Assembly (NCBI RefSeq): GCF_038751955.1
Contig: NZ_JBCEXH010000001.1
Span: 80,300-144,299 of the forward strand
Origin: Methanocalculus natronophilus
Lineage (GTDB): Archaea; Halobacteriota; Methanomicrobia; Methanomicrobiales; Methanocorpusculaceae
Length of the DNA stretch: 64,000 bases
Direction of reading: 5' to 3'
Every line of letters starts with the position of its first letter. The first letter of the stretch is position 1. This document shows positions 30,502 through 43,847 of this stretch, piece after piece. The notes beneath the pieces were generated by a model. That model did no database searches. It was not told the origin of the DNA and saw nothing but the letters and a program-made list of their open reading frames with translations. Both the position numbers and the translations under genes were made by a program.

Positions 30502-31044
30502 ATGACGACAAGTGAGCTGAAAGGCGGCCCGACACAGCCGGAAATCTGTGCGGTCGCAGTGGATAAGCTGGGTGTGCAGAAGAGCGATATCGCAGTTGAT
30601 ATCGGTTGTGGAACCGGTACCGTGAGTATTGCGCTTGCAGAGCGGGCAGAGCATGTATACGCAATTGACATCCGCGAAGAGGCGATCAGGGTTGCACAAA
30701 ATGCCATTCTGACGGGCGGATGCAGCAATATCACTTTGGTATTGGGAAATGCAACGGAATTTCTCGAGGATCTCGATGAGGATGAGATAATCGATGTTGC
30801 ATTTATCGGCGGCACACAGGATCTTGAAACCGTGCTTTTGGCCCTGGTTGAACGGAGAGTCCGCTCAATAGTTGTCAATGCCGTGCTCCTTGAAACCGCA
30901 GTGCTTGCAATCTCCACGATGAAGAGGCTTGGCATATTCTCAGAAGCCGTTCATCTCCAGGTTTCACGGGCCCATGATCTCAATGGAAAGACGATCTTCA
31001 AGCCCATAAACCCAATTTATATCATTACAGGAAGGTGCCGCTGA
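30502..31044 (+). CDS. cbiT: Cobalt-precorrin-6B C15-methyltransferase/decarboxylase
   Basis: SAM-dependent class I methyltransferase of the anaerobic corrin pathway; it methylates C15 and decarboxylates the C12 acetate chain. The 180 residues include the SAM motif DIGCGTGTVSIALAE (33-47), AIDIREEAI, and GNATEFLEDL. It is first in an eight-gene operon; its stop overlaps the cbiL ATG (TGATG). Confidence 0.92.
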   Translation: MTTSELKGGPTQPEICAVAVDKLGVQKSDIAVDIGCGTGTVSIALAERAEHVYAIDIREEAIRVAQNAILTGGCSNITLVLGNATEFLEDLDEDEIIDVAFIGGTQDLETVLLALVERRVRSIVVNAVLLETAVLAISTMKRLGIFSEAVHLQVSRAHDLNGKTIFKPINPIYIITGRCR

Positions 31045-31652
31045 TGCTGACTGCAGTCGGCCTTGGACCCGGGGATCCGGAGCTGCTCACATTGAAAGCC
31101 GTCCGTCTCCTCCGCGAGGCTGACACCGTCTTCGTTCCTGGTGAGATGGCATATACGCTCGTCTCCCCCTACAGAACCGATGCGGTGACGCTCGACTTCC
31201 CCATGACGCATGATGAGGCATATATCGAGGAATGCATGGAGGCAAATGCAGGTGCAATTGCACCGTCTGCACTTCATGGAAGGGCAGTCTTTGGGATCAT
31301 CGGGGATCCGAACTTCTTCTCCACCTTCTCCCGCGTCACAGCGATCCTGAAGAGGGACTATCCCGACATTCAGATCGATTCGGTTCCCGGGATCAGCTCC
31401 ATCACGGCGTTTCCTTCCATCGCTGGCATCCCCATCCAGAAGAGTTTCGCGGTTTCTGATGGATCTGAACCAGATGTCCTGATCAGGCTGAAGGTCCGGA
31501 AACCACAAGAGGAGGCAGAACACCTGAAACGAGAGGGATACTCCGAATTTATGCTTGTTGAGCGGATGTATATGGAAGGGATGGCAGTCTTTTCCGGGGA
31601 TTCCCTTCCCCCGACGAGCAGTTATTTCAGCATAATGTATGCGAGGAGGTAA
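31044..31652 (+). CDS. cbiL: Cobalt-factor II C20-methyltransferase
   Basis: A tetrapyrrole methylase of 202 residues. The glycine loop is LTAVGLGPGDPELLTLKAV at the N-terminus, the SAM-site GDPNFFSTF follows, and VPGISSITAF is the second family signature. It starts at ATG 31044 overlapping the cbiT stop; the upstream in-frame GTG at 31035 is inside cbiT. It is shorter than many CbiL/CobI proteins (about 220-240 residues) but contains all the motifs. Followed after 1 bp by cbiF. Confidence 0.88.
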   Translation: MLTAVGLGPGDPELLTLKAVRLLREADTVFVPGEMAYTLVSPYRTDAVTLDFPMTHDEAYIEECMEANAGAIAPSALHGRAVFGIIGDPNFFSTFSRVTAILKRDYPDIQIDSVPGISSITAFPSIAGIPIQKSFAVSDGSEPDVLIRLKVRKPQEEAEHLKREGYSEFMLVERMYMEGMAVFSGDSLPPTSSYFSIMYARR

Positions 31653-31653
31653 G

Positions 31654-32370
31654 ATGAAAACATTTTATATTGTTGGTGCCGGGTGCGGAGATCCAGGCCT
31701 GATCACAGTCAGGGGAATGGAACTTCTGAAGAAAGCCGATATTCTCATCTACGCAGGATCGCTTGTAAATCCCGAGCTTGTACACGCCTCGGGCGCAGCC
31801 GTGAAGCTTGATTCCATAAAGATGAATCTACCTGAGATCTGCTCTGCAATCCGGGATGGCCTGCAGGAAGACAAACTGGTTGTCCGCCTGCATTCAGGGG
31901 ATCCTGCCCTCTATGGTGCAATCGTTGAGCAGATGGCGGTTCTTGCAAAGGATGGTATTTCTGCTGAGATTGTACCCGGCGTCTCCTCGCTCTTCGGGGC
32001 AGCAGCCGCCCTGAAGACACAGCTGACGCTACGCGGGGTATCTGAGAGTGTCATCATCACCCGTCCCGCCGGAGCAACCCTGGATAAAGATAAGATCGCT
32101 CAGTTTTCCCGCACTGGTGAGACCCTGGTCATCTTCCTTGGTACAGAAAAACTCAGGGAGATCATGGATTCGGTCGAGTGTTTGCCAGAGACTCCGGCAG
32201 CAGTCGTCTACCACGCGACATGGGATGATGAGATCGTGGTCAAAGGGACAGTTGCCGATATCGCTGATAAGGCAGAAGCTGCCGGGATCACAAAAACAGC
32301 CCTGATCATCATAGGGAAGGCGGTTCTTGGGATAGAGAGTGGCTTTACCCATTCGCACCTCTACTCATGA
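31654..32370 (+). CDS. cbiF: Cobalt-precorrin-4 C11-methyltransferase
   Basis: A tetrapyrrole methylase of 238 residues. Its marks are YIVGAGCGDPGLITVRG, the CbiF-type YAGSLVNPELV, RLHSGDPALYGAI, VPGVSSLFGAAAAL and FLGTEKL. The ATG at 31654 has GGAGGT 4 nt upstream. The stop overlaps cbiG (ATGA). Confidence 0.94.
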   Translation: MKTFYIVGAGCGDPGLITVRGMELLKKADILIYAGSLVNPELVHASGAAVKLDSIKMNLPEICSAIRDGLQEDKLVVRLHSGDPALYGAIVEQMAVLAKDGISAEIVPGVSSLFGAAAALKTQLTLRGVSESVIITRPAGATLDKDKIAQFSRTGETLVIFLGTEKLREIMDSVECLPETPAAVVYHATWDDEIVVKGTVADIADKAEAAGITKTALIIIGKAVLGIESGFTHSHLYS

Positions 32371-33236
32371 AATGCTGTGTCATCACCCTCCCAAGATTCA
32401 TGCCCGATGCAGAGACGATAGCAGGGGCGATTGGAGCAGATACCCTGGAGTATCAGGACGGCATATTCCAGAGGGCTTTTAAGGAGTATGAGGGAATCAT
32501 TGCCCTGATGTCAGCAGGAATTGCCATCAGATCAGCTGCACCCCTCCTCACCGACAAGTGGCATGATCCGGCAGTGGTCGTCGTAACACCCGGGCTTGCA
32601 TATGCAGTCCCGATCCTCGGAGGCCATCATGGTGCAAATGATCTCGCATTCCGCCTCGGCGAGATCGGGATCGCCCCGGTCATCTCAACCGCAACCGAGG
32701 CTCATGGCCGCCCCTCGGTCGAGGGAATCGCGTCATCTGGTGCGCACCGCATCGCCAACCGTATCTCAACCCGGAGGGTGAATGCCGCGTTCCTTGATGG
32801 TGATGTCCCGGTCTATGAGATACCAGAGCCCGGTATTGTTGTTGCCGGTCCCGGTGTATCGGTGCTGATCCAGGAGAAACCCTATATGGTTGGAATCGGA
32901 TGCAGGCTTGGCATACGCCCGGAAGAGGTGAAAGAGGCAGTCGAAGCTGCACTTGATGATGCAGGCATCCGTTTGGGCGAGGTGGGTGCATATGTGACCA
33001 CGGCACAGAAGAGGAGAGACTCCGGGCTCGCACAGGGGATCTCAATGCTTGGGGGTGTCCTCATGTACCTGGAAGACCATACCATAAACAGCATCGCCGG
33101 GCCATCACCATCACGGGCAGACCTCATCGGGCTGTCCGGGGTGGCAGAGCCCTGTGCACTTGCCATGGCAGAGATCGGGAGACTTGTCATGAAGAAAACA
33201 ACCTACGGAAGGGTGACCATTGCAATCGGAAGATAA
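32367..33236 (+). CDS. cbiG: Cobalt-precorrin-5A hydrolase
   Basis: Opens the delta-lactone of cobalt-precorrin-5A, releasing acetaldehyde. The 289 residues show an N-terminal domain (CVITLPRFMPDAE, LMSAGIAIRSAAPLL), the core GGHHGANDLA, and the C-terminal CbiG domain (GIGCRLGIRPEEVKEAVE). It starts at an ATG overlapping the cbiF stop. Confidence 0.93.
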   Translation: MKCCVITLPRFMPDAETIAGAIGADTLEYQDGIFQRAFKEYEGIIALMSAGIAIRSAAPLLTDKWHDPAVVVVTPGLAYAVPILGGHHGANDLAFRLGEIGIAPVISTATEAHGRPSVEGIASSGAHRIANRISTRRVNAAFLDGDVPVYEIPEPGIVVAGPGVSVLIQEKPYMVGIGCRLGIRPEEVKEAVEAALDDAGIRLGEVGAYVTTAQKRRDSGLAQGISMLGGVLMYLEDHTINSIAGPSPSRADLIGLSGVAEPCALAMAEIGRLVMKKTTYGRVTIAIGR

Positions 33237-34002
33237 TCAACAAGGACGCCTCTGCATCGTCAGCACCGGACCGGGCAACACCCGGCAGCTGACACCTGCA
33301 GCACTGAAAGCGATAGCAAAAGCAGACTGTATCATCGGCAATGATACCTATATCGAGCTGATCCAGCATCTCATCGCCGGAAAAGAGGTGATAAAAAGCA
33401 GGATGGGCGAGGAGGTCAACCGGGCGCAGCTGGCACTTGAGCTTGCCCTAGACAAGCATGTGGCGATGGTATCTGGCGGGGACGCGGGCGTCTACGGGAT
33501 GGCGAGTATCGTCATTGAAGTTGCTGACAGAACAGGATCACCAGTTCCAGTCGAGGTGATCCCAGGGGTTACTGCAGCAACTGCTGCTGCATCCCGGCTG
33601 GGATCACCGCTTTCAGGAGATTATGTGACCATTTCGCTCTCGAACCTCCTCACCCCATGGGAGGTGATCGAGAGCCGGCTCGACCATGCTTTTGCAATGG
33701 GCGTCCCTGTCGCAATCTATAATCCCCGCAGCAGGGGACGGCCGCATAACCTGGATGCAGCACTGCTCATAGCATCAAAACACAGGATAGGGACAACACC
33801 TGTCGGGGTTGTGAAGAACGCATACCGTCCCAATGAAGAGCGGCATATCATGACGCTTGAGGAGCTGAAGGCAGACTGCAGCCTCGTGGATATGCATTCG
33901 ATTGTGATCATCGGAGGAGAAGAGACCCGGATCTGGAAGGTGGGAGACGATGTCAGAGGAATTATCACCCCGCGGGGATACCATAGAAAATATGTATATT
34001 GA
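33220..34002 (+). CDS. cbiH: Cobalt-factor III C17-methyltransferase (ring contraction)
   Basis: A tetrapyrrole methylase of 260 residues. The glycine loop is IVSTGPGNTRQLTPAA, then VSGGDAGVYGMASIV, VIPGVTAATAAASRLGSPL and AIYNPRSRGRP, all typical of CbiH/CobJ. There is no in-frame ATG near the N-terminus; the start is taken as TTG 33220 inside cbiG because GGGTGA ends 3 nt before it. It overlaps cbiG by 17 bp. Confidence 0.92.
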   Translation: MQSEDNQQGRLCIVSTGPGNTRQLTPAALKAIAKADCIIGNDTYIELIQHLIAGKEVIKSRMGEEVNRAQLALELALDKHVAMVSGGDAGVYGMASIVIEVADRTGSPVPVEVIPGVTAATAAASRLGSPLSGDYVTISLSNLLTPWEVIESRLDHAFAMGVPVAIYNPRSRGRPHNLDAALLIASKHRIGTTPVGVVKNAYRPNEERHIMTLEELKADCSLVDMHSIVIIGGEETRIWKVGDDVRGIITPRGYHRKYVY

Positions 34003-34603
34003 TCTCGGTGCGGATACCCGCGAAGGGTATGCCATTGCAGAGACAAGCAGAAAGCTTGCCAGGGAGACGATAGGTGATGCAACACCGGAGGATGGGATCC
34101 GCCAGCGGTGTTCGGTTGCAGTCGGGGATTTTGCAATGGCGGATCTGATGCGTTTTACGCATGACCCGATAGCAGCAGGTATCGCTGCGATCAAAGGGGG
34201 TGCCACCATCTACACGGACATCAGGATGGTGCAGGTCGGCATCCTGAAGAAAGGCCACTCATGCAGTGTCGAATGCGCACTCGATTATGGTGCGGATATT
34301 GCAGCAGCTGAGGGGATCACCCGGACGTCTGCCGGGTTTCTGGCGCTCAAAGAGCAGCTCGCCGGATCGATTGTGGTCATCGGGAATGCGCCGTCTGCCC
34401 TGCTGGCCATCTGCCGGTATATCGATGAGGGGATCGTGCCTGCCCTTGTGATCGGAACCCCGGTCGGGTTTGTGAATGCTGCCGAATCAAAGGAGCTGCT
34501 CAGGACAAAACCGGTTCCGTCGGTCTCCAATCTCGGCACCCGTGGCGGTACTCCGATTGCTGTTGCAAGCATGAATGAGATCATCACGATGTCGCAAGAG
34601 TAG
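33992..34603 (+). CDS. cbiC: Cobalt-precorrin-8 methylmutase
   Basis: Moves the methyl group from C11 to C12, giving cobyrinate. The 203 residues have the expected N-terminus YIDLGADTREGYAIAETS, the active-site segment GDFAMADLMRF, IYTDIRMVQVGI and PVGFVNAAESKELL. The ATG at 33992 fits the family start; another ATG at 33950 would add 14 residues inside cbiH and also has a GGTGGGAG sequence upstream. Overlaps the cbiH end by 11 bp. Confidence 0.92.
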   Translation: MYIDLGADTREGYAIAETSRKLARETIGDATPEDGIRQRCSVAVGDFAMADLMRFTHDPIAAGIAAIKGGATIYTDIRMVQVGILKKGHSCSVECALDYGADIAAAEGITRTSAGFLALKEQLAGSIVVIGNAPSALLAICRYIDEGIVPALVIGTPVGFVNAAESKELLRTKPVPSVSNLGTRGGTPIAVASMNEIITMSQE

Positions 34604-34606
34604 CCT

Positions 34607-35602
34607 ATGATCGATCCGGTGACAGGGTTCTCCTATCCAGAGGAATGGGTCAGGCGTGCCGGTGAGCAGGGCGATATCACCGCTGTTCAAGAGGGAAGAG
34701 CGGTTCTGACCGCATCCGGCGGGATACTCAGGCGGGGCATCACGACAGGGGCAACGGCAGCAGCAGCGGCAAAAGCAGCTGTTCTTTCGCTCAGGCAGCC
34801 GGTATCCGGGGTGGATCTCCTCCTCCCCTGCGGGATCCGCGTACTGGTGGATGCTGCTGGTGAGAATGGAGAAGGGTCTCTGGTCAAGGACCCGGGCGAC
34901 TACCCCGATGACCGGACAGCCGGGCTCCTCTTCAAGGCAGCAGCTGCCCCCTCCCCGGAGATTGTACTGCATGCAGGAGAGGGGATCGGGAGGTTTACCC
35001 GTGACACACCCCGGTACCTGGAGGGTGAGCCGGCGATCTCCCCCCCGGCACGCGACTGTATCCTGCATGCAATCACCGAGGCGGTCCGGGATACAGGGCT
35101 TGCGGGTGCTCACGTCACCCTCACCGTCGCCGGAGGGGAGGAGGCGGGGGCTGATACCTTAAACCCGAAGATCGGGGTTTTTGGCGGGATATCGCTCCTC
35201 GGCACAACCGGTTTTGTCGAGCCATGGGATGATCATCTCGAATCCTCAATGGAGGAGCGGGTGCGTGCGGCTGATCGGGTGGTGATCACAACCGGCAGAA
35301 TTGGTCTTCGGATCTCCCGCCTCCTCTTCCCTGAGTATGAAGTGGTACTGGCCGGATCAAAGATCCGGCAGGCACTCCAGGCAGCAGACGGAGTGGTGAT
35401 CCTCTGCGGGCTGCCCGGACTTGTGCTGAAATACCTCAGGCCCGATATCCTCGATGGCACCGGGTACCAGACCGTGGAGGAGTATCTTGCGATACCGCAG
35501 GGGATCACAACGATGAAGAAGGTACTGGGAGAGAGTGTTCCTCAGGGTGTGAGGGTTGTGATCGTGAACCGGGACGGGGAGATCATGGGTGATTCAGGAT
35601 GA
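34607..35602 (+). CDS. cbiD: Cobalt-precorrin-5B C1-methyltransferase
   Basis: Methylates C1 of cobalt-precorrin-5B. The 331 residues contain LRRGITTGATAAAAAKAA (family GxTTGTCAAAAxKAA block), KDPGDYPDDRTAG near residue 95, LNPKIGVFGGISLLGTTG and the C-terminal ITTMKKVLGE. The usual TGTCAAA cysteine is TGATAAA here, with Ala in place of Cys. Located 3 bp after cbiC, overlapping cbiE by 4 bp. Confidence 0.93.
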   Translation: MIDPVTGFSYPEEWVRRAGEQGDITAVQEGRAVLTASGGILRRGITTGATAAAAAKAAVLSLRQPVSGVDLLLPCGIRVLVDAAGENGEGSLVKDPGDYPDDRTAGLLFKAAAAPSPEIVLHAGEGIGRFTRDTPRYLEGEPAISPPARDCILHAITEAVRDTGLAGAHVTLTVAGGEEAGADTLNPKIGVFGGISLLGTTGFVEPWDDHLESSMEERVRAADRVVITTGRIGLRISRLLFPEYEVVLAGSKIRQALQAADGVVILCGLPGLVLKYLRPDILDGTGYQTVEEYLAIPQGITTMKKVLGESVPQGVRVVIVNRDGEIMGDSG

Positions 35603-36183
35603 AGGTGGTTGGTGTCGGATGCGGGAGCGGGATGCTGACCGAAGAGGGGATCGTAGCAATCCGGAGAGCGAAGCTGATCTATGGATCCAGAAGGGCAATA
35701 GAGCGGGTACGGCAGCATATCAGCCCTGACTGCACCGTCAGGACGATCAAAGATTATACAGCCATTGCAGACCTCCCCGATGATGCAGTGATCCTCTCCA
35801 CAGGCGATCCCCTCCTTGCGGGACTCGGACACCCCGGCGCTGAGATCATCTGCGGGATATCAAGCCTCCAGGTCGCCTTTGCACGGATTGGAGTTCCCTG
35901 GAGCACCGTCTCGGTGGTGGACGCCCATGGAAGAGATCACAACAAGGCAATCGGTGATGTTGTCATTGATTGCAGAAGGAACCGGCCCGTCTTCATCATC
36001 GCTGATCCGAAATTCCCGGTGCACGCACTTGCAGAGGCACTCCGGGGGATGGAGTGTGTGATCTCTATCTGCCAGGACCTTGGGGAACCGGATGAGCGGA
36101 TCATCACGGGAACGCCGGAGAAACCCCCTGTTCCCGATTCAAAACTCTTCTGCTGTATCGTTCTGCCCGGGCGGGCAGAGTGA
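35599..36183 (+). CDS. cbiE: Cobalt-precorrin-7 C5-methyltransferase
   Basis: A tetrapyrrole methylase of 194 residues: VGVGCGSGMLTEEGIVAI at the N-terminus, ILSTGDPLLAGLG, then ICGISSLQVAFARIGVPW and VDAHGRDH. It is the last gene of the cbi operon and acts beside CbiT, with which it is fused in some bacteria (CobL). A T7 tract follows 7 nt after the stop. CbiJ-, CbiX- and CbiP-type genes are not in the window. Confidence 0.92.
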   Translation: MKVVGVGCGSGMLTEEGIVAIRRAKLIYGSRRAIERVRQHISPDCTVRTIKDYTAIADLPDDAVILSTGDPLLAGLGHPGAEIICGISSLQVAFARIGVPWSTVSVVDAHGRDHNKAIGDVVIDCRRNRPVFIIADPKFPVHALAEALRGMECVISICQDLGEPDERIITGTPEKPPVPDSKLFCCIVLPGRAE

Positions 36184-36296: not shown

Positions 36297-37310
36297 ATGA
36301 TTACGTATAGACAGTTTTTCTTAACCTGTATCACGGCCATCCTGGTTGTGACACTATTCTGTATGCCGGCAGCTGCAGACCAGGTGGATGTTGAGAGCCT
36401 TGATATCATTGACAGGAGTGTCGGGGAAGTGACAGCTGATTATCATATTGATCACTGGCACGGCAGGCTCCCGGTCGTTATCCAGGGTAAGCACATCTCG
36501 CTTGGGGCAGTATTCACCGGAGCAGATGGAGAGAGCATCCCACTCATGGACGAGGATACATTCTATGATACCGGCAGGGGCACCTTTACCGGTGATTATA
36601 TCTTCAATGTCCGCCTCGCCGATGGTGCACCAACAGGCATCGTCGAGCTCCTCAGCCATGGCGATCATGTCCATGTCCGTGGCCAGCAGGCAGGAGAGAC
36701 AGAGATCGTGTTCCTGCTCCAGGAGGGTGATGAGGTAGTCTGGGAGTCCCCCTCAATCGGAGTCAATGTACGGAAGGATGATACGCCAACCGAGATTGTT
36801 GGAGATGGGACGATACAGATCGCTGATCTGAAGATCATCGACAGGAGTGTCAGGGAAGTGACAGCTGATCATCATTTTGATCACTGGCACGGCAGGCTCC
36901 CTGTTGTTACGAAGGGCAAGCACATCTCACTTGGAGCAGAATTTACAGCCGCAGATGGAGAGACGGTCCCGCTGATGGAAGAAGATATCTTTTATGATCC
37001 CGACAGGGGAGTATTCACGGGAGCATATATCTTCAATGTGCGACTGGCAGATGGTGCACCAACCGGTATCGTCGAACTCCTCAGCCATGGCGATCATGTC
37101 CATGTCCGTGGACAACAGGATGGGAGAACGGCCCTTGTCTTCATGCTGCAGCGGGACGACGATGTTGTCTGGGAGTCTGCTGAGATCAATGTGATGGTTG
37201 AAGACCCTGATATGGCAGCAGCTCCTGCAGCTCCTGCAGAGAGTCCGGGATTCGGGGTCCTTGCAGCCCTGGGCGGGCTGATGGTCGTGATCTATGCGGC
37301 ACGCAGGTGA
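36297..37310 (+). CDS. Exported histidine-rich two-repeat protein with archaeosortase-type tail
   Basis: 337 residues. A signal peptide (about 1-27, ending MPAAA) is followed by two copies of a beta-rich module of period 143 residues (about 33-158 and 176-301). Each copy has a DHWHGRLPVV segment, GKHISLGA, and SHGDHVHVRGQQ, giving 15 histidines in total and suggesting transition-metal binding. The C-terminus has PAAPAESPGF, a hydrophobic stretch and a final ARR, which matches the tripartite PGF-CTERM archaeosortase signal, so the protein is probably cut and lipid-anchored on the cell surface. I cannot name the repeat family. Ribosome-binding site AGGAGAT 7 nt before the ATG. Being first in front of NikM/CbiM, a role in capturing nickel or cobalt is inferred. 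Confidence 0.8.
   Translation: MITYRQFFLTCITAILVVTLFCMPAAADQVDVESLDIIDRSVGEVTADYHIDHWHGRLPVVIQGKHISLGAVFTGADGESIPLMDEDTFYDTGRGTFTGDYIFNVRLADGAPTGIVELLSHGDHVHVRGQQAGETEIVFLLQEGDEVVWESPSIGVNVRKDDTPTEIVGDGTIQIADLKIIDRSVREVTADHHFDHWHGRLPVVTKGKHISLGAEFTAADGETVPLMEEDIFYDPDRGVFTGAYIFNVRLADGAPTGIVELLSHGDHVHVRGQQDGRTALVFMLQRDDDVVWESAEINVMVEDPDMAAAPAAPAESPGFGVLAALGGLMVVIYAARR
36393..36770 (+). repeat. First copy of the 429-bp tandem repeat in surface protein 1
   Basis: This segment recurs at 36822-37199 with a 429-bp period (GACAGGAGTG at 36411 and 36840). By eye most bases match, including long identical runs around the HWHGRL and SHGDHVHV codons, so the internal duplication looks fairly recent or homogenised. 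Confidence 0.8.
36822..37199 (+). repeat. Second copy of the 429-bp tandem repeat in surface protein 1
   Basis: Copy of 36393-36770. It keeps every histidine of the first module and adds one (DHHFDHWHG instead of DYHIDHWHG). Confidence 0.8.
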
Positions 37311-37321
37311 ATGAGAACACC

Positions 37322-37345
37322 GGGAGATTGATTCTCCCATCTTTT
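37322..37345 (+). terminator. Hairpin plus T-rich stretch after surface protein 1
   Basis: GGGAGA-TTGAT-TCTCCC (37322-37338) followed by ATCTTTT resembles an intrinsic terminator. It may limit read-through into nikM-1, so that the abundant surface protein is made in excess over the transporter (inference). Confidence 0.5.
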
Positions 37346-37414
37346 ATTCTGATCGTTTTGAAGCAGGATACGGCTCTACAATGGTATTGACTGGCTTATG
37401 AGGGGGTGACTGAT

Positions 37415-38047
37415 ATGGTTCATATATCTGATGGCATTCTTCCCATGCCGGTGGTTGCAGCCGGATGGATTATCACCATTCTCCTGCTTGCAATAACCTA
37501 TCGCTGGGCGGGCAGGCAGGATGATCTGACGCAACAGATCCCAAAACTGTCTGTGATGGTGGGTGCGTTCTTTGTTGCCTCGCTCATCCATATCGACATA
37601 CCACCGTCCAGCGCCCACCTTATCCTAAACGGGCTTGTCGGTATTGTGCTTGGTCCGCTCTCCTATATTGGCATCTTCATCGGCCTCACGCTCCAGGCGC
37701 TGCTCTTCCAGCATGGAGGTATCACCGTCATCGGTGTCAATGCCCTGATACTGGGTGTCCCCGCCCTCATCTGCTATCTCAGCTTCCTGATCGCTTCTGG
37801 ACGCGGACTGCCGCTCACGCTCATTGGCGGGATCTGTGGCGGGTTTGCCGTTTCTGCAAGTGTCTGCCTCCTGGTTGCAACCCTTGTCATCTCAGGGAGC
37901 GAATTTCGGGCAGTTGCAGGTCTCCTCGCGATTGCGCATATCCCGATTATCATCACCGAAGCGATCATAACAGGAGTGATAGTTGGATACCTGGTACGCG
38001 TGAAACCTGAATTACTACCCATACACCTGAAGGGAGAGAAAAAATGA
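37415..38047 (+). CDS. NikM/CbiM-type S component of Ni/Co ECF transporter, copy 1
   Basis: 210 residues, about six or seven membrane helices. The substrate-specific component of a nickel/cobalt energy-coupling-factor transporter. N-terminus MVHISDGILPMP, conserved HIDIPPSSAHLILNG, and QALLFQHGGITVIG. In NikM/CbiM the N-terminal amine and the second-residue histidine bind the metal. Here Val is inserted before His; removal of the initiator Met, which methionine aminopeptidase does before Val, would put His back at position 2. The ATG at 37415 has GGTGA 5 nt upstream. Overlaps the next gene by 4 bp. Ni versus Co preference cannot be told. Confidence 0.9.
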   Translation: MVHISDGILPMPVVAAGWIITILLLAITYRWAGRQDDLTQQIPKLSVMVGAFFVASLIHIDIPPSSAHLILNGLVGIVLGPLSYIGIFIGLTLQALLFQHGGITVIGVNALILGVPALICYLSFLIASGRGLPLTLIGGICGGFAVSASVCLLVATLVISGSEFRAVAGLLAIAHIPIIITEAIITGVIVGYLVRVKPELLPIHLKGEKK

Positions 38048-38523
38048 AGAGAAACACCCGATTACTCCTGGCAGGCCTGATGGTTCTGCTCCTTGCATCT
38101 GCACTCATCGCACCGGTAACAGCGCACAGGGCATATGTCGGTGCATTTCTGACCGGTGATCAGTATGATGAGGTTCTGGTCAGGGCATGGTATGAAGGAG
38201 GCTCGCCCATGGCAGGTGCTGAGATCACCATTTATGCCATCAGGGATGGCACTGAAGAGATCTACATCCAGGATACCGCTGATGAGCAGGGGTTCTATGC
38301 GTTTGATCCCGAGTGGAGAGTGACAGAGTACACAATCATCGCTGAACATACCGGTCACCGGGCAACAATGACCCTTGATCTCGCATCCGGCATAACTGCC
38401 GGACCAGGCACAGAACTCCCGGTTGCGGCACGTATTATTGCAGGGTTTGGCTACCTGGCCGGGCTTGCGGGGATTGCCATGATCTATTCGGCACAGAAGA
38501 TGCAGAAAGAACACCGGGAGTGA
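38044..38523 (+). CDS. NikL/NikN-like auxiliary subunit, copy 1
   Basis: A 159-residue protein. Signal-like helix (about 8-27, LLLAGLMVLLLASALIAPV), extracellular beta-sandwich of carboxypeptidase-regulatory/Cna-B type (about 28-125, LVRAWYEGGSPMAGAEITIYA) and a C-terminal membrane helix (about 128-150). This layout fits the NikL-type accessory subunits that accompany NikM. Cleavage after VTA would leave His as the first mature residue (HRAYVGAF). Translationally coupled to nikM-1 by ATGA. About three quarters identical to copy 2, same length. Confidence 0.8.
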   Translation: MKRNTRLLLAGLMVLLLASALIAPVTAHRAYVGAFLTGDQYDEVLVRAWYEGGSPMAGAEITIYAIRDGTEEIYIQDTADEQGFYAFDPEWRVTEYTIIAEHTGHRATMTLDLASGITAGPGTELPVAARIIAGFGYLAGLAGIAMIYSAQKMQKEHRE

Positions 38524-38745
38524 GACAAGACCCGGAGAATAGCGATCCAGAAGAGATATGCCCCCGGTGTGGTGTCGGGAGTAGTATGGGGCATCGATTC
38601 CTGGTATTTGCAGAGAGACATACCCCCATCTTTTTCATATGCTGCTCTTTTTCCCTCCCGTCTGCCAGGTGATACTCAGGCGACCTGATGGAACCAGCAT
38701 AGGGACATATGCCGGATCAAAACGAAAATTCTTTTACATTTACAC

Positions 38746-38755
38746 AATATATTTT
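38746..38755 (+). promoter_or_regulatory. TATA box of the second metal-uptake unit
   Basis: AATATATTTT in the context ACACAATATATTTTTAC matches the element before surface protein 1. The start site would lie near 38775. Confidence 0.6.
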
Positions 38756-38760
38756 TACTG

Positions 38761-38774
38761 GATCGCCTGCGATC
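38761..38774. promoter_or_regulatory. Palindrome at the start site of the second unit
   Basis: GATCGC-CT-GCGATC is a perfect 6-bp inverted repeat directly downstream of the TATA box, at the expected transcription start. It is a candidate operator, for example for a metal sensor. Confidence 0.45.
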
Positions 38775-38789
38775 AATTGAGGTATTATC

Positions 38790-39443
38790 ATGAACACAAT
38801 GAAACAAATCAGTATTGCCTGTATTTCAGTCGTATGTATCCTTGCATTCCTTTTTATGCCGGCATCGGCACACCAGGATGCTGTCGAAGACGAGATTGCC
38901 GAGATCATCGAACATGCAGATGATCTCTTTGATCTTGCAGAAGTCATCCATGATGAATCACAGGCGATCTATAGAGATGAGACAGTCTCTGAAGAGATCC
39001 GGGATCTCGCTCACCTGGTTCACATGGCAGCCCACGAGCTTGAGCATATCGCAGAACACCTGCAGGAGGATGCAGCAGAGCTTGAAATCCTTGGTGCAGA
39101 ACCCATTGCAAACCGGGCCGCAATCAACTTAATTCTCGCAGATATGAGAGAGGAGATTGCTGAATACACCGAATTACTCGATTCCCAGCATGACAACATC
39201 CATGAACTCGAGTATAATGTTTTAGAATCGCATATCCAGCATGCAGACGCAATCCATGATGCTGCACATAAGGCTGAACGCGATGCACGGCATCTGCTGA
39301 GGCATATAGATGCGCTTGAAGCAGCACTTGACGATGCTGCGTCACCACAGGCACCATCTGCGCCTGCTGAGAGCCCCGGGTTCTCTGCACTTGCCGCACT
39401 TGCGGGGATCATGGCTGTTGTGTATGCCATACGGAGGCAGTAA
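38790..39443 (+). CDS. Exported histidine-rich helical protein with archaeosortase-type tail
   Basis: 217 residues. Signal peptide (about 1-27, ending MPASA), then an almost purely helical body with 16 histidines spaced mostly 3-4 apart (HMAAHELEHIAEHL; ESHIQHADAIHDAAHKAERDA), and a C-terminal PAESPGF, hydrophobic stretch and RRQ. The tail matches that of surface protein 1, but the body is unrelated to it. Cleavage after ASA would expose an N-terminal His (HQDAVEDE). Helical histidine stripes plus surface anchoring suggest nickel/cobalt (or zinc) buffering outside the cell (inference). An ATG three codons on is an alternative start; GAGG lies 8-11 nt before 38790. Confidence 0.78.
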   Translation: MNTMKQISIACISVVCILAFLFMPASAHQDAVEDEIAEIIEHADDLFDLAEVIHDESQAIYRDETVSEEIRDLAHLVHMAAHELEHIAEHLQEDAAELEILGAEPIANRAAINLILADMREEIAEYTELLDSQHDNIHELEYNVLESHIQHADAIHDAAHKAERDARHLLRHIDALEAALDDAASPQAPSAPAESPGFSALAALAGIMAVVYAIRRQ

Positions 39444-39446
39444 GCA

Positions 39447-39465
39447 GATCTCCACCCGGGAGATC
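39447..39465 (+). terminator. Hairpin after surface protein 2
   Basis: GATCTCC-ACCCG-GGAGATC is a perfect 7-bp stem 3 nt after the stop codon. A second short stem, TCCAT...ATGGA, follows at 39475-39491. There is no long T tract, so it may be a processing or attenuation element between the surface protein and nikM-2, parallel to 37322-37338 in the first unit. Confidence 0.4.
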
Positions 39466-39548
39466 ACCTCACAATCCATTTTAGAGATGGAATCCAGATA
39501 AGAGAGACTCATATTCATTCCATAGCAACATCAAGGGAGCCAGAGACC

Positions 39549-40178
39549 ATGCACATATCTGACGGGGTTCTTCCCATGCCGGTGGTTGTAGCAGGCTGGA
39601 TCATCACCATCATCCTGCTTGCCGCCACACTTAAGTGGGCATCACGACATGGCGATATCGCAGCTGAGATACCAAAGCTCTCGGTGATGACCGGAGCATT
39701 CTTTGTCGCCTCGCTCATTCACATCGACATCCCCCCATCAAGCGCCCATCTTATCTTAAATGGCCTTGTGGGAATTGTACTTGGGCCACTCAGCTACATC
39801 GCGCTCTTCATCGGCCTGACGCTGCAGGCACTGCTCTTCCAGCACGGCGGTATAACCGTCCTCGGCATCAATGCCATGATGATCGGAATTCCTGCTCTTC
39901 TCTGCTACCTGGCATTCCTCACTGCCGCAGGGCGGCAGGTTTCCCTCCCCCTTATCGGAGGGATATCCGGCGGACTTGGTGTATTCCTGACGATGTGTAT
40001 CCTGGTTTTGATCCTCGTCATCTCCGGTTCAGAGTTTCGTGCCGTCGCTGGCGTCCTTGCTGTTGCACATATCCCGATCATCATCATAGAAGCGATTGTC
40101 ACCGGTGCGGTGATTGGATATCTCGCACGTGTCAAACCTGAATTATTGCCTTTTCAACTGAGAGGAGAGAAGAAATGA
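39549..40178 (+). CDS. NikM/CbiM-type S component of Ni/Co ECF transporter, copy 2
   Basis: 209 residues, same topology as copy 1. The N-terminus is the canonical MHISDGVLPMP with His at position 2, followed by HIDIPPSSAHLILNG and LFQHGGITVLG. GGGAG lies 11-15 nt before the ATG. It overlaps nikL-2 by 4 bp. Many silent differences from copy 1 show an old duplication, so the two proteins may serve different metals or affinities (inference). Confidence 0.92.
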   Translation: MHISDGVLPMPVVVAGWIITIILLAATLKWASRHGDIAAEIPKLSVMTGAFFVASLIHIDIPPSSAHLILNGLVGIVLGPLSYIALFIGLTLQALLFQHGGITVLGINAMMIGIPALLCYLAFLTAAGRQVSLPLIGGISGGLGVFLTMCILVLILVISGSEFRAVAGVLAVAHIPIIIIEAIVTGAVIGYLARVKPELLPFQLRGEKK

Positions 40179-40654
40179 AGAGAACTACCCGTATAGTACT
40201 GACTGGCCTGATAGCCATCCTGCTTGTATCTGCACTCATCGCACCGGTAACAGCCCACAGGGCATATGTTGGTGCGTTTATGACCGGTGATCAGTATGAT
40301 GAAGTGCTGGTCAGGGCATGGTATGAAGGGGGTACACCCATGGCAGGTGCAGAGATCACCATCTATGCAATAACTGATGGTGAAGAAGCGATCTACCTGC
40401 AGGAGACCGCTGATGAGAATGGCTTTTTTGCTTTTGAACCCAAATGGAGAGTGACAGAGTACACAATCATCGCCCAGGATACCGGTCACCGGGCAACAAT
40501 GACCCTGGATCTCGAAACAGGCATGACAACCGGAACAGACCCGGAACTCCCGCTTGCAGCACGAATCATAGCCGGGTTTGGCTACCTGACCGGGCTTGCG
40601 GGCCTTGCCATGATCTATTCGGCACGGAAGTTGCAGAGAGAAAAACAGGAGTGA
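40175..40654 (+). CDS. NikL/NikN-like auxiliary subunit, copy 2
   Basis: A 159-residue paralogue of the protein at 38044-38523: signal-like helix, extracellular beta domain with HRAYVGAF at the predicted mature N-terminus, TGHRATMTLDL, and a C-terminal membrane helix (IIAGFGYLTGLAGLAMIY). Around the signal-peptide end and the first 45 mature residues the DNA of the two copies is about 90% identical by eye, more than in the neighbouring nikM genes. Confidence 0.8.
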   Translation: MKRTTRIVLTGLIAILLVSALIAPVTAHRAYVGAFMTGDQYDEVLVRAWYEGGTPMAGAEITIYAITDGEEAIYLQETADENGFFAFEPKWRVTEYTIIAQDTGHRATMTLDLETGMTTGTDPELPLAARIIAGFGYLTGLAGLAMIYSARKLQREKQE

Positions 40655-40684
40655 GGTGCCGGGCAGGCAGAATACAGGAGATAT

Positions 40685-41449
40685 ATGGATTACCCTGATA
40701 TCGACAAATATGCCAATCTGAATTCTGCGATTCACCGGCTTGAGCCACGGTGCAAGGTGATCTCCTTCACCATCCTTATCTTCTCTGCAGTCTTTGTCGA
40801 GACGCTCCACCTTGCGCTTCTGGCCCTGCTCATCGCAATCACAATCCTGATCATCTCCCGGCTCCCGCTCGCCTTCGTCGTCAGGCGCTCAAAAGTCATC
40901 CTGGTATTTATCCTTCCCATCCTGATCCTGATGCCCCTCACCGTGCCCGGCACTCCCCTCTGGCAGGCAGGCCCGGTCATCTTCTCAGAAGAGGGTTTCT
41001 TCTTTGCGCTCCTGATCACGCTCAGATCAGTTGCTGCAATCACTCTTGTCCTGACGCTCCTTGGCACACAGCGGTTTGATACCACCCTCAAAGCACTCTC
41101 CCTCCTGAAGGTGCCGGGGATACTCATCCAGATGCTCTTCTTCACGTACCGCTACATCTATGTCATGATGGATGAGTTCCTCAGCATCTGGAGTGCAATG
41201 CGGGCAAAAGGCTATTCATTCAGGCTGAATCGGTACGGGCTGTCAATCATCGGCAATCTCGTCGGTATGCTCCTTGTGAAGAGCTACGAGCGGGCTGAGC
41301 GAGTCTTCCTTGGGATGCAGGCAAAAGGCTACCAGGGCAGGCCAATGAGTTTCGCACCGTTTGCAATCAGGAGATCTGATTGTTTTATGTGTCTGATCCT
41401 CATATCCATTGCAGGAGGACTCCTGATTTATCCACTGGTGATCACATGA
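40685..41449 (+). CDS. NikQ/CbiQ transmembrane (T) component of ECF transporter
   Basis: 254 residues, about five or six membrane helices. It couples the S component to the ATPase. The two coupling-helix motifs are visible as SAMRAKGYSFRL and GMQAKGYQGRP. GGAGATAT lies just before the ATG, and the stop overlaps the ATPase gene (ATGA). Only one Q gene serves both M copies in this locus. Confidence 0.92.
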   Translation: MDYPDIDKYANLNSAIHRLEPRCKVISFTILIFSAVFVETLHLALLALLIAITILIISRLPLAFVVRRSKVILVFILPILILMPLTVPGTPLWQAGPVIFSEEGFFFALLITLRSVAAITLVLTLLGTQRFDTTLKALSLLKVPGILIQMLFFTYRYIYVMMDEFLSIWSAMRAKGYSFRLNRYGLSIIGNLVGMLLVKSYERAERVFLGMQAKGYQGRPMSFAPFAIRRSDCFMCLILISIAGGLLIYPLVIT

Positions 41450-42357
41450 AGGAAGCCGTGACAATAGAGAACTTACACCATCACTACCCGGACGGCACCG
41501 TCTCCCTGAAGGAGATCTCACTCACTGTCCATGAGGGAGAGCGGCTTGCCATCATCGGGCAGAACGGTGCCGGGAAGACCACCCTCTTCCTCCACTTAAA
41601 CGGCTCTATCAAGAGCATGGAAGATAATGTGCATATCTTCGGGCAGAATGTCCGCCACATGAAGATTGAGGAGCGGATACAGAAGGTCGGCGTCGTCTTC
41701 CAGGATCCCGACGACCAGCTCTTCATGCCCACGCTCTACGATGATGTGGCATTTGGCCCAACCAACATGGGACTCTCACGTGAGGACGTGGACAGGCGGG
41801 TTCGTGAAGCCCTTGAGACAGTCGGGCTCACCGGGTTTGAAGACCGTGTCCCCCACCATATGAGCTATGGCGAGAAGAAGCGTGCTGCCCTTGCCGCTGT
41901 CCTCTCAATGGAGCCGAGGATACTGATTCTGGATGAACCGACTGCAAACCTAGACCCAAAAAACCGTGCACTCCTGATCCAGCTGATTAACCGGCTGAAC
42001 CAGGAGAAGGGTATCACCACCATCGTTGCCATGCATGATGTGAATGCCGTCTCGCAGATGGCTGACCGGGTGGTGGTTTTGAATACCACAATCGTTGCAG
42101 ATGGCAAGCCAAACAGCATCTTCTCTGACGGGGATCTTTTGAAGAAGAACAACCTCGAAGCACCGGAAGTCTACAAGCTCTTCAGGATCATGGAGTGTTA
42201 CGGGTATTGCTGCTCTGATCATCCTCCGCTTGCGGCACATGATGCTCCCGGCGCCTTTGATACATCACTTATGGCAAACGGGGGGGCAATTACATTGAAG
42301 AGGCATCAGCGAACCGAAGAGGAGCTTCTGAACCTGCTGGCAAACTTTGAATACTGA
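41446..42357 (+). CDS. NikO/CbiO ATP-binding component of ECF transporter
   Basis: 303 residues. Walker A GQNGAGKTTLFLHL (about 37-50), Q-loop FQDPDDQLFM typical of ECF ATPases, signature HHMSYGEKKRAALA, Walker B ILILDEPTANLD and switch His in VAMHDVNAV. A C-terminal extension of about 60 residues follows the ATPase fold and includes a cysteine pair (CYGYCCSDH), a possible metal-sensing tail (inference). The ATG at 41446 is chosen for its overlap with the Q gene. Confidence 0.94.
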   Translation: MKEAVTIENLHHHYPDGTVSLKEISLTVHEGERLAIIGQNGAGKTTLFLHLNGSIKSMEDNVHIFGQNVRHMKIEERIQKVGVVFQDPDDQLFMPTLYDDVAFGPTNMGLSREDVDRRVREALETVGLTGFEDRVPHHMSYGEKKRAALAAVLSMEPRILILDEPTANLDPKNRALLIQLINRLNQEKGITTIVAMHDVNAVSQMADRVVVLNTTIVADGKPNSIFSDGDLLKKNNLEAPEVYKLFRIMECYGYCCSDHPPLAAHDAPGAFDTSLMANGGAITLKRHQRTEEELLNLLANFEY

Positions 42358-42503: not shown

Positions 42504-43847
42504 ATGCCAAAGAGAGAGATACGAATCCCACGAATCATAATCGCAGGCACCCACAGCGGATGCGGCAAGACAACGATTGCAACCGGGCTGATGGGAGCGC
42601 TTGCCGCCCGTGGGCTGACTGTCCAGCCCTTCAAGGTCGGGCCCGACTTCATTGACCCGACCCACCATACCGAGATCTGCGGCCGGGGTTCACGGAACCT
42701 TGACCCTTTCATGATGGGGAGGGATGAGGTTCTCCGCACCTTCGTCTCGGCATCTGAGGGAGCAGATATCGCCGTCATCGAAGGGGTGATGGGGCTCTTT
42801 GACGGGGTCGACGGGACAGCAGAATCAAGCACTGCCGATGTCGCAAAAATCCTCTCCTCCCCGGTTATCCTTGCCTGTGATGTGAAAGGGATGAGCCGGA
42901 GCGTCCACGCATTGATCCTTGGGTACACGGCCTATGATCCGGATGTCCCCTTTGCAGGCGTCATCTACAACCGGGGCGGATCTGATCGCCACCGCAGGAT
43001 GATTGGCACTGATCAGGACCTGCAGACACTTGGCTGGATTCCCCGGCGGGATGACCTGCAGGTGAAGAGCCGCCACCTCGGCCTCACAATGGCTGGTGAA
43101 GGCGAGGGTATGCGTGCCAGCAGGACTGTGGTGGAAGAGTGCTGTGATCTGGAGGAGATCATCCGGGCAGCATCCGCAGCTCCCCCGCTCCTGCAGCAGG
43201 TTGACGATGTGAGCAATGCGAACACGAGGGTTCGGATCGGTGTTGCAATGGATGCAGCATTCTGTTTTTATTATGCAGAGAACCTCACAAAACTGAGGAG
43301 AGCGGGAGCAGATCTCACCTTCTTCTCACCCATGACTGATCCGCTTCCGGATGTCGATGCACTCTACCTCGGCGGCGGCTACCCCGAACTGTATGCGGAA
43401 GCACTTGAGAAGAGTCCGTGCAGGCACCAGATCAGAAGGGCCGCTGATAATGGACTTCCAATATTTGGGGAGTGCGGAGGGCTCATCTACCTCTCCCGTT
43501 CGCTTCAGACACATGAGAGAACGTCGGCTGGTGTCGGTGCCATTTCTGCTGATGCTCTGATGAAGAGCCGGTTCCAGGCACTCGGATATGTCGACGGAAC
43601 CGTCACCGGCGACGCATCACGTCTCCCCGGAAGCCTCAACTTCCGTGGCCATGAGTTCCACTACTCTGCCATCACCCCGGATACCGACTGCCGGTATGCC
43701 TTCTCCCTCAGACGAGGCAAAGGTATTATGGATGGAAAAGACGGTATCATAGAGGGGAACACAATCGCCGGATACACCCACGTCTATTTCACACAACAGT
43801 TTGCAGATGCGCTTCTTCGGTTTGCCGGAACAAACAGATCAGAATGA
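42504..43847 (+). CDS. Cobyrinate or Ni-sirohydrochlorin a,c-diamide synthase (CbiA/CfbB family)
   Basis: 447 residues. ATP-dependent amidation of the a and c side chains using glutamine. An N-terminal DTB-synthetase-like domain has the P-loop GTHSGCGKTT (15-24) and KVGPDFIDPTHH. A C-terminal class I glutamine amidotransferase domain has the nucleophile in FGECGGLIYLS (C324) and RGHEFHYS. CbiA works on cobyrinate and CfbB on the coenzyme F430 precursor; the two cannot be separated safely by eye. The position after a cobalt pathway and a Ni/Co transporter is compatible with either. Own promoter. Confidence 0.87.
   Translation: MPKREIRIPRIIIAGTHSGCGKTTIATGLMGALAARGLTVQPFKVGPDFIDPTHHTEICGRGSRNLDPFMMGRDEVLRTFVSASEGADIAVIEGVMGLFDGVDGTAESSTADVAKILSSPVILACDVKGMSRSVHALILGYTAYDPDVPFAGVIYNRGGSDRHRRMIGTDQDLQTLGWIPRRDDLQVKSRHLGLTMAGEGEGMRASRTVVEECCDLEEIIRAASAAPPLLQQVDDVSNANTRVRIGVAMDAAFCFYYAENLTKLRRAGADLTFFSPMTDPLPDVDALYLGGGYPELYAEALEKSPCRHQIRRAADNGLPIFGECGGLIYLSRSLQTHERTSAGVGAISADALMKSRFQALGYVDGTVTGDASRLPGSLNFRGHEFHYSAITPDTDCRYAFSLRRGKGIMDGKDGIIEGNTIAGYTHVYFTQQFADALLRFAGTNRSE

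Follow-up and report, generated by a model that had tools for sequence, protein, structure and literature searches.

A probable doubled NikKMLQO-type importer in Methanocalculus natronophilus with two unrelated surface proteins in the NikK position

Results

Organization of the locus

The window analysed here is a stretch of 64,000 nucleotides from the Methanocalculus natronophilus genome (G000; contig NZ_JBCEXH010000001.1, positions 80,300 to 144,299). Its positions 36297-42357 hold a predicted nickel/cobalt uptake locus of eight genes, all on the + strand and with starts that overlap or lie close together, in the order SP1-M1-L1-SP2-M2-L2-Q-O (Table 1), where SP1 and SP2 are the two surface proteins. 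The gene order, the coordinates and the counts of 15 and 16 histidines in SP1 and SP2 agree with an earlier note on this DNA, as does the paralogy of the two M-L pairs (157 of 209 residues identical between M1 and M2, or 75%; 123 of 159 between L1 and L2). M1, which starts at GTG 37406 or possibly at ATG 37415, and M2 both score far under the cut-off of the CbiM model TIGR00123. L1 has a signal peptide, a mature N-terminus HRAYVG and a C-terminal hydrophobic helix. The NikL model NF058648 is the sole strong model match of L1 and L2, yet both remain below its cut-off of 100 bits; the L genes keep the gene order of other NikL loci. No CbiN is found at the locus, L being the only open reading frame (ORF) between M and Q, and the start of O overlaps Q by 4 nucleotides. 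Downstream, cbiA/cobB falls below the cut-off of the CfbB model. Promoter and terminator scans of the locus gave nothing above chance. A palindrome (GATCGCCTGCGATC; TAGATCN5GATCTA) at window positions 38761-38774, about 30 nucleotides before the SP2 start, is a possible operator; it precedes SP2 in three Methanocalculus genomes (the window, G012 and G030) and was not seen before SP1.

Table 1. Genes of the locus and its surroundings, and SP1-domain proteins at other loci. Positions are those of the window unless a locus is named.
Feature	Position	Strand	Evidence and context
cbi cluster	begins near 31035, cbiE at its end; ORFs 31035-35602 = cbiL/F/G/H/C/D		cbiD model-confirmed, others by reading
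cbiE, cobalt-precorrin-7 methyltransferase	35599..36183	+	NCBIfam NF004461, 241.7 bits, over cut-off; context
SP1	36297..37310	+	signal peptide, two domain copies of ~130 aa, linker, PGF-CTERM-like tail; NikK slot of unit 1
M1, NikM/CbiM S component	37406..38047	+	PF01891, 168.7 bits, cut-off 23.1; M tree
L1, NikL-like subunit	38044..38523	+	NF058648, 54.6 bits; alignment
SP2	38790..39443	+	signal peptide, His-rich predicted four-helix bundle, disordered linker, PGF-CTERM tail; NikK slot of unit 2
M2, NikM/CbiM S component	39549..40178	+	N-terminus MHISDG; PF01891, 173.9 bits
L2, NikL-like subunit	40175..40654	+	NF058648, 61.7 bits
Q, CbiQ/NikQ T component	40685..41449	+	TIGR02454, 132.3 bits, over cut-off
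O, CbiO/NikO ATPase	41446..42357	+	PF00005 (ABC_tran); TIGR01166 (cbiO), 215.6 bits, over cut-off
cbiA/cobB, cobyrinate a,c-diamide synthase	42504..43847	+	TIGR00379, 461 bits, over cut-off; directly downstream; cobalt context
fdhAB-linked SP1-domain protein	L057 10548-11105	-
fdhAB-linked SP1-domain protein	L058 8033-9208	+
fdhAB-linked SP1-domain protein	L059 8444-9619	-
SP1 domain in haloarchaeal ZnuA-like proteins	L193-L196, L198-L201, L208

The NikK position across the phylum

A profile search with L recovers NikL-like genes in 52 of 295 genomes of the phylum. The usual plan of these loci is an exported protein followed by M, L, Q and O, with a gene for an exported protein before M in nearly all readable loci. 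In the loci read, this slot is occupied by NikK in 45 cases, by SP2 in 18 and by SP1 in 2, counts that are not frequencies because seven SP2 loci were fetched through SP2 matches; many genomes nevertheless show SP2 before M-L in the L-anchored search alone. The usual occupant is a DUF4198 (NikK family) protein with a PGF-CTERM tail, scoring 89-102 bits against the DUF4198 model in relatives. The same model gives no match to SP1 or SP2, and the idea that either is a divergent NikK was rejected on this ground. Judged by gene order, SP1 and SP2 occupy the NikK slot, and M-L pairs as a rule follow a gene for a surface protein. The claim that this layout lacks precedent therefore did not hold, since NikKMLQO has been described and the archaeal slot usually carries a tailed DUF4198 protein; what appears new is the replacement of NikK at one locus by two unrelated bodies.

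Two further loci bear on the variation of this plan. L144 (G277) is also a tandem with two surface proteins. It reads NikK-L-SP2-M-L-Q-O, with no M in its first unit, and the L-profile search marked an internal TAA in an L match there. The M gene of an SP2-M-L-Q-O locus in G030 (L062) has an in-frame TAG at codon 162 of an otherwise intact NikM, reflecting a sequencing error, a pseudogene or read-through.

SP1 and SP2 bodies and tails

Only the first 33 residues, corresponding to the signal peptide, and the tails of SP1 and SP2 can be aligned, so that the bodies are unrelated while the signal peptide is shared, as had been claimed. Neither body matches any Pfam or NCBIfam model, and the two apparently represent unnamed domain families. 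Sequence searches of the PDB with SP1 and SP2 profiles returned chance coiled-coil or marginal matches only. The proposed sortase tail is more probable for SP2, which passes the PGF-CTERM model PF18204 (20.5 against a cut-off of 18.8) and falls just short of TIGR04126 (23.8 against 24.5), and the genome encodes an archaeosortase A (ArtA; G000:C4:173962, TIGR04125, 262 bits, cut-off 75). The SP1 tail is 55% identical to that of SP2 but lies below both models (PF18204, 15.1; TIGR04126, 15.5).

SP2 (217 aa) is clearly enriched in histidine (16 residues, 7.4%, p = 8e-5) and is predicted with confidence to form a four-helix bundle (predicted local distance difference test score, pLDDT, 88.7) joined to the tail by a disordered linker. 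His78, His82, His138, His156 and His160, all in helices 2-4 of the model, are kept in 93-100% of 27 domains. As judged from the helix boundaries, these five side chains would be layered about equally far from one bundle end. A weak likeness of SP2 to copper storage proteins and to His/haem maquettes was set aside as generic four-helix similarity. In most genomes with SP2 relatives, these stand ahead of M-L-(Q-O), an arrangement seen in many genomes of Methanomicrobiales and of Methanosarcinaceae-like archaea. About 15 of the 24 strong relatives from the phylum search, which have one to three repeats, are neighbours of M-L.

SP1 (337 aa) is described less well as histidine-rich. Its 15 histidines (4.5%, single-test p = 0.018) amount to weak enrichment and the cytoplasmic ATPase O reaches 4.9%, so that the count was rejected as stand-alone evidence and the weight falls on the arrangement of invariant histidines. 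SP1 is built from a duplicated domain whose two copies share 73% identity, and the motifs HxDHWHG and HGDHVH are invariant across all seven aligned copies of the domain. The domain was found at a Ni/Co locus in G000 and G012 only, and a scan of the genome contigs with SP1 as query gave no match. In the zinc ATP-binding cassette (ABC) operons of haloarchaea, 9 of 10 loci read have it placed within ZnuA, where it separates the two lobes, and a separate, very His-rich SP1-domain protein often adjoins the ZnuA-like protein. SP1 itself lacks the two lobes (no PF01297 match) and has only the inserted type of domain. The zinc operons provide independent support for a metal-binding role of the domain, though not for Ni/Co specifically. 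SP1-domain proteins are also found directly downstream of fdhAB-like (formate dehydrogenase) genes in three Methanocalculus-type genomes (Table 1); the 391-aa versions have an extra N-terminal domain which by eye resembles 404-433-aa proteins beside feo (L218, L221).

These conserved positions bear on whether SP1 and SP2 could instead be structural or assembly partners of M-L, a lid or scaffold comparable to an N or L subunit, with incidental histidines. Proximity to M-L is the strongest signal and the role of NikK itself is unproven, both of which would suit such partners. However, specific histidines are among the most conserved positions of SP1 and SP2, and the SP1 domain occurs inside a metal-binding protein (ZnuA), making a purely structural role very improbable.

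A single Q-O motor

The Q of the locus is the only CbiQ match in the whole genome, bearing out the earlier reading of a single Q/O module; the assembly comprises 143 contigs with an estimated completeness of 99.7%, making it unlikely, though possible, that a second CbiQ was missed. Model searches of the genome found no other CbiM, no NicO and no SBP_bac_5, and therefore no NikABCDE, while NikR is encoded. The two units are the sole recognisable Ni/Co importers of G000, corrinoid import and CbtAB not having been searched. Methanogens need both nickel (F430, hydrogenase, carbon monoxide dehydrogenase) and cobalt (corrinoids), and with one CbiQ both S-units must therefore share one T component. 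We infer from the single CbiQ that M1-L1 and M2-L2 share the motor, and the shared energisation proposed earlier becomes a requirement in this genome.

Duplication history and the cobalt/nickel split

In G012 the unit SP1-M1-L1 lies alone between cbiE and cbiA, while SP2-M2-L2-Q-O forms a separate locus. On account of these separate loci and the unrelated SP bodies, we rejected a recent event that simply duplicated the unit as a whole in tandem. The separate loci, together with the SP2 relatives that head M-L-(Q-O), agree with the proposal that each surface protein belongs to its own M-L pair. In G030 and G028 a CbiM, of the cobalt system, adjoins cbiA (CbiN was read in G028; L203 contains CbiN), and SP2-M-L-Q-O is their other system. 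The M tree places M1 beside the M2 of the window, inside the SP2-type M clade of Methanomicrobiales. The simplest story, read from the M tree and gene order, is that an SP2-type M-L pair was duplicated in Methanocalculus, came to be paired with the surface protein SP1 and displaced CbiMNQO from the cobalamin cluster.

The position of SP1-M1-L1 between cbiE and cbiA in G000 and G012, where relatives have CbiM(N) beside cbiA, suggests that this unit serves cobalt and SP2-M2-L2 nickel. The split put forward in the earlier note is thus favoured by gene context as the most likely assignment, given the cobalamin genes around SP1-M1-L1. It is weakened in its strict form by G001 and G055, where SP2-M-L-Q-O is the only CbiM-type system, so that SP2 units may carry both metals.

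The same observations bear on whether the tandem is a dosage duplication, in which both units would import the same metal or metals and SP1 and SP2 would be interchangeable, low-specificity scavengers for either M-L. M1 and M2 are 75% identical and sisters in the tree, G001 and G055 manage with an SP2 unit as their only CbiM-type system, and relatives of SP1 and SP2 serve several metals (zinc and iron operons), all as expected of a dosage effect. However, G012 has the two units at different loci, the SP1 unit being alone in the cobalamin cluster, the upstream regions differ in that the SP2 palindrome is absent before SP1, and the bodies of SP1 and SP2 are unrelated, and we regard dosage duplication as unlikely.

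Discussion

The locus is best read as a doubled NikKMLQO-type energy-coupling factor (ECF) importer in which two archaeosortase-anchored metal-binding proteins, not homologous to each other, take the place of NikK, a reading to which we assign a probability of about two in three. After export, SP1 and SP2 would have their PGF-CTERM tails trimmed and would stay anchored on the outside of the membrane, either beneath the S-layer or within it. Their histidine clusters may bind Co2+ or Ni2+, and the bound ion would be locally concentrated at, or handed to, the adjacent M-L S-unit. M would then topple onto the only Q-O motor and in this way bring the ion across the membrane, with the motor serving M1-L1 and M2-L2 in turn.

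Several observations weigh against this reading. The SP1 structure model built from its two repeats is poor (pLDDT 48), and a fold search with SP2 against the PDB gave no match at E <= 1e-3. SP1-domain relatives lie mostly outside Ni/Co loci, many of them in zinc-uptake operons, so that the association of homologues with Ni/Co transporters, to which the earlier note had looked for support, was found for most SP2 relatives and not for those of the SP1 domain. SP2 relatives also occur away from NikML in G182, G225, G334, G338 and G151, and two of these exceptions sit in feo iron-uptake operons. In addition, G001 and G055 rely on the SP2 unit among CbiM-type systems.

The feo operons concerned (FeoA, split FeoB) belong to archaea of family f10 and include SP2-type PGF-CTERM proteins (L218 5191-9337; L221 7612-10683), which by their position are candidate extracellular accessories of iron uptake. 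In G182 (L206 1489-3288 and 3739-4437; L207 1097-5034) SP2 domains form part of exported proteins with several domains, and the stretch read contains no transporter. SP2 relatives such as these, lacking transporter neighbours, might point to cell-surface metal buffers or sensors that act in protection from excess metal or in signalling and pass no ion to M-L, and His-rich exported proteins can serve resistance or sensing. However, SP1 and SP2 stand in the place of NikK, which is known to be part of an uptake system, and their relatives are located in uptake operons (ZnuABC, FeoAB), leaving a buffering or sensing role rather improbable.

The proposed doubled importer, with its two probably metal-binding surface proteins, suggests that archaea exchange the modules which catch metal outside the cell while keeping the importer itself standard. 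More tentatively, the SP1 and SP2 domains could be general extracellular receivers of transition metals that serve ECF (Ni/Co), ABC (Zn) and Feo (Fe) importers alike and pass ions straight to the transporter. Here a cobalt and a nickel set of receiver and S-unit might compete for one Q-O, the motor setting the Ni/Co balance. To our knowledge, the extracellular capture of nickel and cobalt by methanogens is poorly known, and the locus makes it directly testable through two small soluble proteins. It also offers a natural case of two S-units obliged to share one ECF motor, and the two domain families, found beside Ni/Co, zinc and iron uptake genes, could be marked as candidate accessories of metal uptake in the annotation of many archaeal genomes.

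Comparison with known systems

No description of PGF-CTERM proteins with Ni/Co ECF transporters was found in titles and abstracts retrieved from a single open-access library. NikKMLQO is a described bacterial nickel transporter in which NikK is a periplasmic component (PMC2667541; Brucella, PMC2868824), termed an additional component (PMC2868824). The locus shares with it the K-M-L-Q-O order, the M, Q and O families, a probable NikL homologue and an exported protein in the K slot. It differs in having SP1 or SP2 instead of the DUF4198 protein NikK, two K-M-L sets with one Q-O, and, as an archaeal system, PGF-CTERM-like tails. It is thus a probable variant of NikKMLQO in which two different probable metal-receiver proteins replace NikK, and not a new kind of system. 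The 2009 survey listed archaea with NikMN1QO/NikMN2QO only (PMC2667541), and the present loci extend NikKMLQO to archaea.

With CbiMNQO the locus shares homologous M, Q and O, and the position of CbiMNQO beside cbiA in relatives is the neighbourhood of SP1-M1-L1 here. In contrast, the window has no CbiN, and M1 and M2, apart from their low TIGR00123 scores, form a separate branch of the tree. The Znu/Azt-type zinc ABC operons of haloarchaea share the SP1 domain, either stand-alone and His-rich or between ZnuA lobes, but have an ABC-3 permease and no ECF transporter, and the stand-alone proteins read carry no PGF tail. A functional parallel is the zinc hand-off from streptococcal PhtD to AdcAII (PMC3842936), where the gene of a surface His protein accompanies that of the binding component in a metal importer. 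SP1 and SP2 may be likened to PhtD in how they would work; that system is bacterial, handles zinc and belongs to a classical ABC transporter.

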